Assembly (NCBI GenBank): GCA_030640625.1
Contig: DAOWJB010000167.1
Location: 1-47,672 of the forward strand
DNA length: 47,672 nt
From: Bacteroides sp.
GTDB lineage: Bacteria; Bacteroidota; Bacteroidia; Bacteroidales; SM23-62
Direction of reading: 5' to 3'
Positions 1,608 through 5,857 of this stretch are shown here, one piece after another (the first letter of the stretch is position 1; every line of letters begins with the position of its first letter). The position numbers and the translations under genes were made by a program. Below the pieces are notes generated by a model. That model was given only the letters and a program-made list of their open reading frames with translations, had not been told where the DNA came from and ran no database searches.

Positions 1608-2551
1608 CTTTTGGAGCGCTTGCCACAGCTGCTTATGGTTCATTAGGCTTCACAGATCCAAAAACAGATAAACTGGCAAGTTCTGTTAAGCAAGAGGATG
1701 ATGTAACAATTGAAAGGGTGTCAGAAGGACAACCCCACAGGGGAAAAGTGTTGGCAGTAATACAACCTCATTGCGATGACATCCCCATTTATGCTGCAGG
1801 TACTGTAGCAAAGCTTATTTATGAAGGTTATACCGGATATTTGATAAGAACATCCAATGATGAAGCTGCAGGTGCGGGTGCGAGTATGGGGGAGAGGGTT
1901 TTGAATAATGAAAGGGACAATGCAGAGGTGGCAAAGGTTCTGGGGCTTAAAAAGACTTATGACCTAAACTATAGCAATCATAGGATGGACGAATATAACA
2001 TACAGGAGATTAAGGGACGGCTTATATTTTTGTTCAGGTTGCTGAAAATAGATACATTGATATGTTATGATCCATGGGGACAATATGAAGAAAATCCTGA
2101 CCATTATATTACGGCCATGGCAGTTGAAGCTGCTCGTTGGATGGCAGGCATGGGTACCGATTATCCGGAACAATTAGAGGTTGTGAAACCTCATACTGTG
2201 AGAGAGATGTATTATTTTGCAAGGGGACCTCAGCTTGTAAACCGGGTAGTGGATATTAGCAGGTTTATAGACATAAAGGTAGAGAGTAATATTGTCTGTA
2301 AAACACAAGGACCCGGTGGAGATAATGGCGCACGACTAAGAAAAAGGTTAGCAAAGGAGGGGAAGAAATTAGCGATACTTGGTAACGATGACCAGACAGC
2401 TAACTTCAATTATGTAAAAGAATTTGTGTTGGATCATGATAAAATAAATGGAGAAAAATATGGACTGGCCTGGGCGGAATGTTTTCATTATGTCGGCCCC
2501 TCTCCCTCTAAACTCGATGAATATATACGAAAAAATACCGTTTCTATATAA
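1574..2551 (+). CDS. PIG-L/LmbE-family deacetylase with Tat-type leader
   Basis: A 325-residue protein. Residues 1-25 form a twin-arginine-like leader (MERRKFISKN, then a small hydrophobic stretch), so export to periplasm or envelope is likely. The zinc motif normally PHPDDE is present as PHCDDI at 65-70, keeping His66, Asp68 and Asp69 but changing the Pro and the usual Glu. A second motif, ENPDHY, gives His177. The family removes N-acetyl groups from sugars such as GlcNAc, using zinc. The ATG at 1574 is preceded by AT-rich sequence without a strong Shine-Dalgarno, normal in this phylum. Substrate unknown. The altered motif makes catalysis likely but not certain. Confidence 0.8.
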   Translation: MERRKFISKNITFGALATAAYGSLGFTDPKTDKLASSVKQEDDVTIERVSEGQPHRGKVLAVIQPHCDDIPIYAAGTVAKLIYEGYTGYLIRTSNDEAAGAGASMGERVLNNERDNAEVAKVLGLKKTYDLNYSNHRMDEYNIQEIKGRLIFLFRLLKIDTLICYDPWGQYEENPDHYITAMAVEAARWMAGMGTDYPEQLEVVKPHTVREMYYFARGPQLVNRVVDISRFIDIKVESNIVCKTQGPGGDNGARLRKRLAKEGKKLAILGNDDQTANFNYVKEFVLDHDKINGEKYGLAWAECFHYVGPSPSKLDEYIRKNTVSI

Positions 2552-2640
2552 ATCAGCAATTCTCATCAGTTATTAATAAATCCTCCGGAGTGTAATCATT
2601 GAAAAATCCCCCAGAAACGGGGAAAATTATCTCACAAAAA

Positions 2641-2673
2641 AACGCAACCAACTGCAAATAAGCTGGTTGCGTT
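2641..2673 (-). terminator. Rho-independent terminator-like hairpin after the tRNA-like remnant
   Basis: AACGCAACCA at 2641-2650 pairs perfectly with TGGTTGCGTT at 2664-2673 around a 13-base loop. Read on the minus strand the stem is followed by a run of Ts. It lies 6 bases beyond the 3' end of the tRNA-like fragment at 2680-2728, where a tRNA terminator would be. Confidence 0.6.
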
Positions 2674-2679
2674 TAATCT

Positions 2680-2728
2680 TGGTCGGGGTGAATAGATTCT
2701 AACTACCGACCCCACGCCCCCCAGTTGG
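2680..2728 (-). pseudogene. Decayed tRNA 3' half (Pro-like)
   Basis: Read on minus, the last bases are CACCCCG-A-CCA, a 7-base acceptor strand, discriminator and CCA. They are preceded by a 17-base T-arm with a 5-7-5 layout whose stem still pairs (two G-U pairs). The loop is TTAGAAT instead of TTCGAAT, losing the near-invariant C56. Before it is a variable-loop-like GGGTC and a G-rich segment resembling the anticodon 3' side of tRNA-Pro. The 5' half is missing, so it cannot be a working tRNA. The Pro label is an inference from the CGGGGTG-type acceptor. Confidence 0.45.
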
Positions 2729-2901
2729 GGGTTTCTGTCATTCTATATCCTCTTGCAAATCCTAGAGAATCTGGAATAATTTACCAATGTATTTGATGTG
2801 ATGCCTTGCCTCATACCGGATTGTTGACTCCTGCAAAAATACATCTTGGTGATTAAATGCGATTTAAATCCACATTGTTTTGCAAATTGATTGCAAATAA
2901 A

Positions 2902-2941
2902 AAACCAGACTATCACAACAACCACTGTAACTATCTGGTTT
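2902..2941 (-). terminator. Terminator-like hairpin after the tRNA-Val fragment
   Basis: AAACCAGA at 2902-2909 pairs with TCTGGTTT at 2934-2941 around 24 bases. On minus the stem runs into six Ts. It lies 6 bases beyond the 3' end of the tRNA-Val fragment and may be the original terminator of the tRNA-Val gene, separated from it by the insertion. Confidence 0.5.
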
Positions 2942-2947
2942 ACAATT

Positions 2948-2991
2948 GTGGGCGATACTGGATTCGAACCAGTGACCTCCTGCTTGTAAGG
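2948..2991 (-). repeat. Partial copy of tRNA-Val(TAC) 3' half, putative attachment site
   Basis: These 44 bases match 4852-4895 at 43 positions (only 2978 T against 4882 C differs). The copy covers the anticodon loop, anticodon stem 3' side, variable loop, T-arm and acceptor 3' strand, then diverges abruptly at 2992. That is the layout left when a tyrosine recombinase integrates at a tRNA 3' end with crossover near the anticodon loop. Confidence 0.85.
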
Positions 2992-3000
2992 TACTTGATT

Positions 3001-3339
3001 CTACCCAGGTGATGACATAGATTCATGTATTTCTATTTCACAGGCTCCATTCCAAGCTAGATGTGGGTGTCCTTCCAACAGGGCTTTTGCCTCATCTATA
3101 CTTTCAGCCTGTAATACTGAATAACCACAAACCTGTCTATTGCTTTTCTGACTGTTTCCATCAGCAGTGAGTTTCTGACCTCCCATCAGAGGATTTCCAA
3201 GATCAACAAGCTGATCACCACATTTGGCAGCCCATGTCATCCATTGTTCCATACCTTTCTCCATTTTTTCAGGTGAGGCATTGGCCGATTGGGCCATAAG
3301 TTCATCCGGAGCATGATAGATTACGATATATTTTTTCAT
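3001..3339 (-). CDS. YCII-related (YciI-like) domain protein
   Basis: From the ATG at 3339 the product is 112 residues beginning MKKYIVIYHAPDELM, the usual first strand of YCII proteins. A longer frame reaches 3375, but the added residues do not fit the fold. The family forms small dimeric alpha/beta-barrel (ferredoxin-like) proteins, some with a His-Asp pair. In this sub-type (DGC-R-like YCII) function is mostly unknown. The C-terminus has strand EACEIEIH-type composition and the stop codon is 10 bases from the tRNA-Val fragment. It lies on the same strand as the reductase upstream and may be cotranscribed across about 115 bases. Confidence 0.7.
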   Translation of the reverse strand: MKKYIVIYHAPDELMAQSANASPEKMEKGMEQWMTWAAKCGDQLVDLGNPLMGGQKLTADGNSQKSNRQVCGYSVLQAESIDEAKALLEGHPHLAWNGACEIEIHESMSSPG

Positions 3340-3453
3340 GGTAGTTGGGTTTGTTTGATTTAACAATGGTTTCACTTCAGATACCCACCTGAGATAGGGA
3401 ATATGGAACCAAATAAGTTCTAAATAAGGATCAGAAGCTATGTCCAGTATTTA

Positions 3454-4440
3454 TTAGGGCCAATTACTCAGCCCCTTGAAGAACATGAGCCGTTCATAAT
3501 GTGGTTCTACCTTTTCTTCTATAGCCAGCATATCTTCTGCTGAAAGCTGTACAAACTCCTTTGCAATTTGGATGTTTTCCTCAAGCTGAGAGATTTCTTT
3601 AATCCCAATAATGATCGTACTTACCGGCAGGCTCAAAGTGTAGCTCATCGCTTCCTTCATGGTGATAATTCCACCCTGATCAAAGATCCTTTCCTTTGCA
3701 GGAATCTTCATGCCAATGATACCCATCTTTTTCTCCACAGCAGTGGGAAGAAGACCCTCAATGAAAGATTTATAATATTTATCTGCTGCATTAAGTGCCA
3801 TAAGCACTGTATCAAAAGGATATCGGTCGATTAGTTCTTTCAATGGACCCGGACTTTCATGACCTGTTATGCCAAGGAAACGTACTATCCCCTGATCCCT
3901 TGCCTCCTCAAATGCCTTCAGGCAGCCACTATCTGAAAAGATCCACTCCAGGTTCTCATTTTCTCTTACACTATGGATCTGCCAGAGATCAATTCTATCC
4001 GTTTGAAGGTTTTTCAAGGATTTCTCCAGGTCACTCATGGCTCCATCATAACTCCTGGAAAAGGTCTTGGTAGCAAGGAAGACCTCATTCCGGCGTGTTT
4101 TCATAACCTCCCCGATATATCTTTCACTGATACCACGAGCATTTGTACCATAATAGGCAGATGTATCGATGTAATTTATTCCAAGGTCTATCGCTTTGTT
4201 AATGATTTCAATTGCCTTATCCTGCATTCCAGCCTGTTCCAGGGTAGCCTGACCACCTAGGCTGTAAATACTTAGCATTTCTCCCGTTTTACCAAAGGTA
4301 CGATGTGGAATTTTTAAGGTAACGTCATCTTTGGTACATCCTTCAAGCGACATGATGTAGGGGACAAGCCCCATTATGGAAGTACCGGCAATCAGCTTCT
4401 GTAAAAATCTTCTCCGACTTTCTTCTTTGATCCGTGTCAT
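3454..4440 (-). CDS. Aldo/keto reductase with twin-arginine lipoprotein leader
   Basis: From the ATG at 4440 the protein is 328 residues. Residues 8-14 read SRRRFLQK, followed by a hydrophobic stretch and Cys35 in LEGC, which fits Tat export and possible lipidation. The AKR barrel follows, with the catalytic tetrad Asp92, Tyr97, Lys125 and His156 all present and a C-terminal helical region. AKRs reduce carbonyls with NAD(P)H; exported AKRs with this leader are common in Bacteroidota and are generally of unknown substrate. The frame extends to 4503, but the leader start is at 4440. A TAAATTTG box lies shortly upstream without a matching -33 element. Confidence 0.85.
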   Translation of the reverse strand: MTRIKEESRRRFLQKLIAGTSIMGLVPYIMSLEGCTKDDVTLKIPHRTFGKTGEMLSIYSLGGQATLEQAGMQDKAIEIINKAIDLGINYIDTSAYYGTNARGISERYIGEVMKTRRNEVFLATKTFSRSYDGAMSDLEKSLKNLQTDRIDLWQIHSVRENENLEWIFSDSGCLKAFEEARDQGIVRFLGITGHESPGPLKELIDRYPFDTVLMALNAADKYYKSFIEGLLPTAVEKKMGIIGMKIPAKERIFDQGGIITMKEAMSYTLSLPVSTIIIGIKEISQLEENIQIAKEFVQLSAEDMLAIEEKVEPHYERLMFFKGLSNWP

Positions 4441-4809
4441 AATTTGAAATTTATGATATACCAACAAATTTAGATTAAAAACTGGCAAAAGGTAGAATTT
4501 CAAATAAGTATAGACTTAAATTTTTAACAAGAAATAGAAATGTTACCACTTACAAGGAAAAAATGATACCACAAAAAACCTTCATTTTTTTTCATTTTTT
4601 GGTAATCTCCCCCCAATATTAGCGGGGAGTTGACAAAAAATGATAATCTACACCAAAATACGAATGGTATCAAGATACCGGTGGAAGTGGTATCATCTTA
4701 CTCCGTCGTTAAAACACCAGCATTAAAAAATAAAAATCTTAAAATAATTCACAACGTATTGAGTACATAGAATCCCCAAATCTTCAACCCCCATTCAACC
4801 CAATAAAAA
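4441..4809. other. Gene-free region between reductase and tRNA-Val
   Basis: No ORF of substance is seen. The stretch contains the leader region of the reductase gene, a CTCCCC/GGGGAG hairpin (4607-4612 with 4624-4629), and the GTATC-centred repeats described at 4560-4699. It lies inside the putative island, next to the tRNA end where an integrase gene would often sit. Confidence 0.5.
4560..4699. repeat. Inverted-repeat cluster of a GTGGTATCAT motif
   Basis: ATGATACCAC at 4563-4572 is the exact reverse complement of GTGGTATCAT at 4687-4696. The match extends to 12 of 13 bases. Between them GGTATC-AA-GATACC (4666-4679) is a perfect dyad with the same core. This may be a multi-site operator or the ends of a very small inverted-repeat element; no target duplication was seen. 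Confidence 0.5.
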
Positions 4810-4840
4810 AAGGAGCCAGATCTTTATGACCTAACTCCTT
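4810..4840 (-). terminator. Terminator of tRNA-Val transcript
   Basis: On minus, AAGGAG and CTCCTT form a 6-bp stem around 19 bases, followed by a run of seven Ts, starting 13 bases after the tRNA 3' end. Confidence 0.6.
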
Positions 4841-4852
4841 CTTCATCAATCG

Positions 4853-4927
4853 TGGGCGATACTGGATTCGAACCAGTGACCCCCTGCTTGTAAGGCAGGT
4901 GCTCTGAACCAGCTGAGCTAATCGCCC
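4853..4927 (-). tRNA. tRNA-Val (anticodon TAC)
   Basis: A complete cloverleaf on minus. Acceptor GGGCGAT pairs with ATCGCCC, the D-arm contains AGCTCAGCTGGTTCAGAGC, the anticodon stem CTGCC/AGCAG type encloses CTTACAAG with anticodon TAC, and the T-arm carries GGTTCGAATCC. The discriminator is A and CCA is not encoded. Its 3' half is duplicated at 2948-2991. Confidence 0.95.
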
Positions 4928-5074
4928 TTCTGTGCCAGGGTGATCCCCTTAAGCGGGTGCAAATATACGTAGCTATTTTATTATTACAAAGGAAATCCAG
5001 CATTTTTTCGACACGGTCAAATGGCCTCTCTGACTGGCAGTTCTGAAGATATTTACGGGGTATTTTTCTATTGA

Positions 5075-5857
5075 TTACTCGTAGTCCCCACTTAGATCCA
5101 GCAACTCAACTTTCCGGAACTGATAGGGATGGCTTTCGGCCTGCAAGGCAATGTATCCCGATGAGAGCAGTGTACCATCCAGCAGGGGGAATCCTTCAGG
5201 TAAACCTCCTCCACCGATCTGTGGTTGCATATATGTCAGTACCGTGTCACCGTTGACAAGGTGATGGACAATGCTGTCTCCAAGTACGATGAGTTCAACA
5301 TTGACCCATTCCTCTCCCCTGAATGTCTCGGAGGACGAACTGATACAGTGTTGGGTGACCAATTCTCCCTCCATTACGACATTGGTCCCGGGTGTACAGA
5401 GATTGGCCGTGGGACGATCCCCCTCATCTCCTCCGCCAAGGAATTGTGCTTCTATGCTGATAGGAAATGGCTGTTCTACGAGCATGCTTTCTGCCGATTG
5501 GGCATGGAACATGACCCCACTGTTTTTAAAGGCCCAACCGGGTCCACCGGTAACCTGCTCACCGATGATCCTGTATTCCACCCTCAGTATGTAATAAGAA
5601 AATGGCTGTCTGTAAAAGATGTGCCCGAACTCTCCGTCAATGCTGTCCCATTCATCATAGTTCACAACAAGCATCCCGTCTTCTACACGGAAAGTGTTCA
5701 AATAATTCTCGTTTAGCGGGTGTTTGGCAAACTTGATATCCCAATCTTCCAGATCGGTGCCATTAAAAAGTTGGATCCATTTCTCTTGTTCTTGCGGTTG
5801 AACGCCTGGTTTACAGCAAACCATAAGAAGTAATAAAAGCAAACTTAAATTTCTCAT
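5075..5857 (-). CDS. DUF1080 (3-keto-disaccharide hydrolase-like) lipoprotein
   Basis: A 260-residue protein with a lipoprotein leader ending LMVCC (Cys14-15). The first domain motif, LFNGTDLEDW, is the classic opening of the DUF1080 jelly-roll fold, followed by a laminin-G-like beta sandwich to the C-terminus. DUF1080 proteins are secreted or lipidated and act on carbohydrates; several are 3-keto-disaccharide hydrolases working with oxidoreductases. The presence of a Tat oxidoreductase 0.6 kb away is noted but it lies beyond a tRNA and is an AKR rather than a GFO/IDH dehydrogenase. A consensus promoter with a dyad over its -33 box lies upstream (5898-5936). Confidence 0.85.
   Translation of the reverse strand: MRNLSLLLLLLMVCCKPGVQPQEQEKWIQLFNGTDLEDWDIKFAKHPLNENYLNTFRVEDGMLVVNYDEWDSIDGEFGHIFYRQPFSYYILRVEYRIIGEQVTGGPGWAFKNSGVMFHAQSAESMLVEQPFPISIEAQFLGGGDEGDRPTANLCTPGTNVVMEGELVTQHCISSSSETFRGEEWVNVELIVLGDSIVHHLVNGDTVLTYMQPQIGGGGLPEGFPLLDGTLLSSGYIALQAESHPYQFRKVELLDLSGDYE

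Follow-up and report, generated by a model that had tools for sequence, protein, structure and literature searches.

A two-gene, integrase-less interval between copies of a tRNA-Val 3' half in a Bacteroidales genome, a probable decayed island at a tRNA-Val hotspot

Genes and tRNA-derived sequences at the locus

The window, i.e., the whole stretch of DNA analysed here, is an entire contig of 47,672 nt (G000:C95) from a Bacteroides sp. genome (G000; 4.0 Mb in 352 contigs, 90% complete). ARAGORN identified a single tRNA gene in this window, tRNA-Val(TAC), located on the minus strand at positions 4852-4927 and scoring 73.9 bits against RF00005. When the 2400-5100 region was compared to Rfam, only this intact tRNA-Val passed the threshold, the remaining matches being far under the gathering cut-off. 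The last 44 nt of the gene, starting at the anticodon loop, are found again on the minus strand at positions 2948-2991 with 43 identities out of 44, and the two sequences diverge directly past the anticodon loop. This repeat had been reported in a preliminary description of the locus. The same description had pointed out that a general repeat with no link to the tRNA would speak against an insertion: a search of G000 with a 28-nt T-arm/acceptor pattern (up to 3 mismatches) yielded these two copies only and a control pattern yielded none, which excludes a chance origin. These data confirm that the tRNA-Val repeat is real. Among the features by which tRNA islands are recognised is a directly repeated tRNA 3' end at their far boundary, and the 2948-2991 sequence is best read as an att copy left behind by a tyrosine integrase.

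The tRNA-Val copies enclose two minus-strand genes. The first (3001-3339) encodes a YCII-domain protein (PF03795, E = 3.6e-8); its open frame spans positions 3001-3375, with the ATG at 3337-3339 as likely start, and its stop codon is located ~10 nt from the att copy. The second (3454-4440) encodes an aldo/keto reductase (AKR; PF00248, E = 3.3e-33) with an N-terminal signal-like stretch, in an open frame of 3454-4503 with a likely ATG near 4440; no NCBIfam model passes its cut-off for this protein. These are general family assignments only and do not suggest a role in mobility, defence or toxicity. Upstream of the AKR gene, the 4560-4699 region carries 13-nt inverted repeats (AAAATGATACCAC / GTGGTATCATCTT) and a GGTATCAAGATACC palindrome, which are possible regulator sites. 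The YCII-AKR pair is not tied to the island, as a YCII gene and a truncated AKR gene, 82% identical to the window, stand together on contig C137 of G002 (L026, 16165-16966), where there is no tRNA copy.

No recombinase is encoded between the tRNA-Val copies, where a tyrosine-recombinase tRNA island would hold its integrase, and a PF00589 search returned no integrase match on the window contig. The preliminary description, in which the interval was considered to lack an integrase and to be possibly a remnant, is therefore borne out on this point. The recombinases of G000 amount to two Xer-sized proteins and one fragment, and when the G027 integrase was used to look for remains of an integrase gene across the first 8 kb of the window, it yielded noise only.

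To the left of the att copy, a tRNA-Pro(GGG) relic is found on the minus strand at positions 2640-2724, oriented like the tRNA-Val copy. It consists of the 3' 45 nt (2680-2724) and of a terminator hairpin (2640-2674), stops at the anticodon loop, and matches the intact tRNA-Pro of G000:C44 at 80%, with 4 mismatches in 45 nt. Farther left, a PIG-L deacetylase gene (1529-2553) is 93% identical to its counterpart on G002:C400, versus 79% for core genes, and in each of the two genomes is located to the left of the tRNA-Val fragment; given this excess of identity, the gene was probably exchanged more recently and looks like a single-gene block.

Reconstruction of the target site and integrase-linked fragments

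When the 2992-4895 segment was removed in silico, joining position 2991 to 4896, ARAGORN recognised a complete tRNA-Val in the product: as expected for a tRNA island, its removal restores an intact target gene. With the intact tRNA-Val locus of G090, a genome from another family, the joined site gave an alignment of 165 nt (81% identity) that crosses the junction; the fragment side by itself aligned over 131 nt and the intact side by itself over 84 nt. The folC gene adjoins the tRNA in G090 and is also located nearby in the window, which makes G090 a reasonable stand-in for an unoccupied site, albeit from another species. A contig search with the gene of the right flank retrieved 6 loci only, two of them apparently contigs of G003 and G005, and no closed empty site from the same species; the relatives carrying this gene include metagenome-assembled genomes labelled Bacteroides sp. 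(SM23_62, HyVt-375, CSMAG_477). The comparison with an empty site, which had been proposed as the way to check the insertion, is thus favourable as regards the rebuilt tRNA and its match in G090, and partial in that this match comes from another family.

We searched the 393 genomes of the order for strict fragments, i.e., tRNA-Val 3' halves that do not run on into the D-arm side. Eight were found, two in the source genus (G000 and G003) and six outside (two in G027, one each in G236, G099, G204 and G352). On their anticodon-loop side, all six fragments outside the genus are followed by a PF00589 match. In five cases (G099:C28, G204:C24, G352:C29, G236:C80 and G027:C42) the integrase is full-length and its open frame starts ~0.1-0.2 kb from the fragment; in the sixth (G027:C130) the match is a C-terminal remnant. 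In G000, the slot of the relatives' integrase, just past the fragment, is occupied by the YCII and AKR genes. In G099, a fragment, an integrase, cargo genes and an intact tRNA-Val in direct orientation make up a complete 5.8-kb element. Pfam analysis of two fragment-locus integrases and of the integrase encoded on G267:C342 detected PF13102 and PF00589 in all three, and the arm-binding domain PF17293 in two (one fragment-locus protein and one other). This G267 contig (L105; 6,877 bp) carries, besides its integrase, a 73-nt identical terminal overlap across the tRNA-Val core, an observation consistent with the circular form of a related element or with an unresolved repeat giving an equal picture. 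Looser searches recovered fragments with no adjoining integrase in G013, G006 and G002, so that integrase-less fragments are not unique to the window. The exact fragment pattern had no match among IMG/VR viral contigs.

Measured against the intact tRNA-Val of their own genome, the fragments are 44 (G000), 44 and 44 (G027), 45 (G236), 46 (G099), 49 (G204) and 50 nt (G003) long. The breakpoints therefore agree to a few bases, in the anticodon loop or just past it. This regularity bears on an integrase-independent origin, in which the copy would be a partial duplication or a pseudogenised neighbour of a tRNA-Val pair. tRNA arrays can decay, and tandem tRNA-Val copies are present in some genomes of the order (G087, G190 and G278). 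However, the window copy ends at the anticodon loop, like the integrase-adjacent fragments of other families; its flanks differ from those of the intact gene on both sides, unrelated genes separate the two copies, and the 5' half is gone without a trace. We consider such a duplication very improbable. Both the integrases adjoining homologous fragments in other families, which the preliminary description had suggested looking for, and the rebuilt tRNA support its proposal that the copy stems from integrase-mediated insertion at the tRNA 3' end.

Taken together, these results lead us to read the 2948-4851 segment as a decayed genomic island at a tRNA-Val hotspot, flanked by att sites and devoid of integrase like a cis-mobilizable element (CIME), with a probability of roughly 0.8. 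An element with a tyrosine integrase would have recombined its tRNA-Val core, a 3' half, with the chromosomal tRNA-Val, the crossover occurring in the anticodon loop. By comparison with the other loci, the 3' half of tRNA-Val (4852-4927, the integration target) would have been rebuilt with element DNA, and the old 3' half would have been pushed, together with its former flank, to positions 2948-2991. Most likely, site-specific integration came first, and was followed by the loss of the integrase and of most of the cargo and then by vertical persistence.

Element ends and history of the locus

The 3' flank of the att copy carries TTTGCAAATTGATTGCAAATAAAAAACC and a hairpin, and that of the intact tRNA carries TTCAACCCCCATTCAACCCAATAAAAAAAGG and a hairpin. 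On the left (2879-2941, plus strand), the element-like end is composed of a TTTGCAAAT/ATTGCAAAT tandem repeat with an 11-bp pitch (2879-2898), an A-run and a terminator hairpin (2902-2941); beside the intact tRNA (4783-4842, plus strand), it is composed of a TTCAACC tandem repeat with the same pitch (4783-4800), an A-run and a terminator. The order is thus common to both flanks (two 7-9-mers at 11-bp pitch, A-run, terminator, tRNA core) whereas the sequence is not. The left end matches sequences that flank tRNA-Val loci or fragments of several other families, and the TTCAACC-type module is also found beside tRNA-Val copies in G002, G003 and G006 and beside a tRNA-Ala in G002. In the latter case (C19, 7003-7030; L131), the TTCAACC repeat, A-run and terminator lie immediately 3' of an intact tRNA-Ala(CGC) and are preceded by a sequence similar to the end of a T9SS sorting-domain gene. 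An integrase matching the TTCAACC-type end was not found, nor was this end found among IMG/VR viral contigs.

A tandem repeat with a 10-12 bp pitch is present at one fixed position in 13 of 41 distinct tRNA-Val 3' flanks, a proportion biased upward by several TGCAAAT-type flanks that entered the set by homology to the window, the other types being independent. In 1000 dinucleotide shuffles the mean was 0.35 and the maximum 4, and other pitches or positions gave 0-3; the position and pitch range were picked after inspection. The repeat sequences differ among flanks (TGCAAAT, TTCAACC, GTATCGA, GTTACAT, GTGTACA, TTTAAAC), as would be expected of arm-type sites for different integrases. The different 3' flanks of the two copies suggest the ends of two different, stacked elements. 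If the repeats are read as element ends, the copy at 2948 would mark where an older element, to its left, meets the YCII-AKR unit, to its right, and the displaced flank (2879-2947) would be the tRNA-side end of the earlier element, implying at least two stacked elements. We had initially taken the left flank (TTTGCAAAT to the terminator) as simply the ancestral chromosomal flank; this view was revised, as the complete G099 element has a like architecture, with different repeats, on its tRNA side. The flank may be both, an old element remnant fixed in the chromosome. In G108, where the tRNA-Val flank has the repeat, no fragment was found farther left within ~38 kb. The single integrated element (2992-4851) of the preliminary description thus stands as regards its integrase-mediated origin, and is incomplete in that at least two stacked element ends are probably present, with an element-like left side and a tRNA-Pro relic.

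The genomes of the same family available for comparison are all fragmented assemblies. The congeneric G002 (contig C400) shares the fragment-YCII junction with G000, but in G002 30 nt of the tRNA are left and the YCII stop is 14 nt away. Beyond the junction come a second TTCAACC-type end and ~9.6 kb with other genes; an intact tRNA-Val follows, separated by one gene from another fragment. G003:C55 has an intact tRNA-Val, one gene and a fragment, and G006:C26 a fragment with no full tRNA nearby. As no integrase adjoins any of these fragments, the tRNA-Val locus of this family appears to be a hotspot where small units without an integrase accumulate additively. G000 and G002 share ~72% identity in the junction region, versus 79% in the core genes of the right flank, indicating an old junction; its presence in a decayed state in a congeneric genome suggests that the insertion is probably old and that the unit is probably no longer self-mobile. 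The intact tRNA-Val genes of G002 and G003 (L021, 15675-15750; L022, 5292-5368) have a 5'-side flank unlike the chromosomal one and apparently common to both, and are followed by one gene and then another tRNA fragment; they are possibly tRNA genes carried by an island.

The 1.9-kb unit may be what remains of a larger island after deletion, the YCII and AKR genes being chromosomal or later insertions and not its original cargo. This variant, compatible with a decayed island, would account for the homologs of both genes that occur elsewhere in G002 and G003 away from tRNA copies and for the ~9.6 kb of additional DNA between like ends in G002; however, in G000 and G002 alike, 10-14 nt separate the YCII stop from the fragment, which suggests an old junction, and we hold the variant to be rather doubtful. 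It is unlikely that the unit is still mobile, as a non-autonomous mini-element whose core, YCII-AKR genes and arm/terminator end would form a minimal circle excised and inserted by a tyrosine integrase acting in trans. The 43/44 identity of the core fits such mobility, as do the arm-like repeats and terminators retained at both ends and the recurrence in the genus of 0.5-1.7 kb units with one or two genes, delimited by tRNA-Val copies or by ends of the TTCAACC type (in G002, one unit with YCII alone and another with one gene; in G003, one unit with one gene). On the other hand, G000 has only its two Xer-sized recombinases and a fragment, the junction copy of G002 is decaying, and the unit was not found a second time with identical ends. 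Loss of the integrase, rather than mobilisation in trans, would be the course taken by the decayed island.

These small units could also be viewed together. The tRNA-Val locus of the family would then be a cassette array, in which 0.5-2 kb units of one or two genes are shuffled by a tyrosine integrase in trans; we regard this as improbable. Under such an arrangement, each unit might have as its boundaries a tRNA-Val 3' half and a modular end made up of an arm repeat with an 11-bp pitch, an A-run and a terminator, and the terminator-bearing end would shield transcription of the tRNA from each insertion. Unlike those of integron cassettes, whose attC sites are not tRNA-derived, the boundaries in the window are tRNA-derived.

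Relation to known islands and significance

Islands with att repeats but without integration genes are a named class, the CIMEs, exemplified by the ICESt1-related islands (PMC5704250). As in CIMEs, att-type repeats are present at the end of the target gene and on both sides of the window unit, integration and transfer genes are absent, and the unit is probably stacked with other elements by accretion; in contrast to CIMEs, whose att sites are functional and mobilised in cis (PMC5704250), the window unit has two genes only, its att sites are predicted from sequence, and no active neighbouring element is present on its contig. In Dehalococcoides, 15 ssrA islands lack an integration module and may be CIMEs; they are likewise stacked and bounded by copies of an RNA-gene 3' end, but involve a serine recombinase, tmRNA and a 20-bp repeat, whereas the window involves tyrosine recombinases, tRNA-Val and a 44-bp copy (PMC3146451). 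Additive flexible islands that range in size from 330 bp to 42 kb and have repeated 3' ends of tRNA-Lys at their borders are reported at tRNA-Lys in Ca. Methylopumilus in an excerpt of PMC10872708. The window shares with them a variable island between repeated tRNA 3' ends; theirs are 20-bp repeats in another phylum, and the arm/terminator grammar of the ends is not described in that excerpt. The excerpt also gives an own tyrosine recombinase as a mark of tycheposons, and none is present in the interval. A further parallel is with the five Bacteroidales islands that have full-length PF00589 integrases, which have in common with the window the target, the breakpoint region and the orientation of the far copy, but hold an integrase directly beside the fragment where the window has cargo genes.

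The unit had been described as far smaller than known islands. This does not hold, since tRNA-repeat-bounded islands down to 330 bp are published, according to the same excerpt (PMC10872708), and att-flanked islands without an integration module already form a named class (PMC5704250; PMC3146451). The window joins this known kind, of which relics were known before. It represents a very small, worn-down stage of a tRNA island in an uncultured Bacteroidales lineage and a clear case of islands piling up at one tRNA. The boundary grammar of the tRNA-Val islands, i.e., a core reaching to the anticodon loop, a 3' side with a terminator and repeats at 11-bp pitch, and the integrase on the opposite side, could aid in finding integrase-less islands that are overlooked by integrase-based detection.
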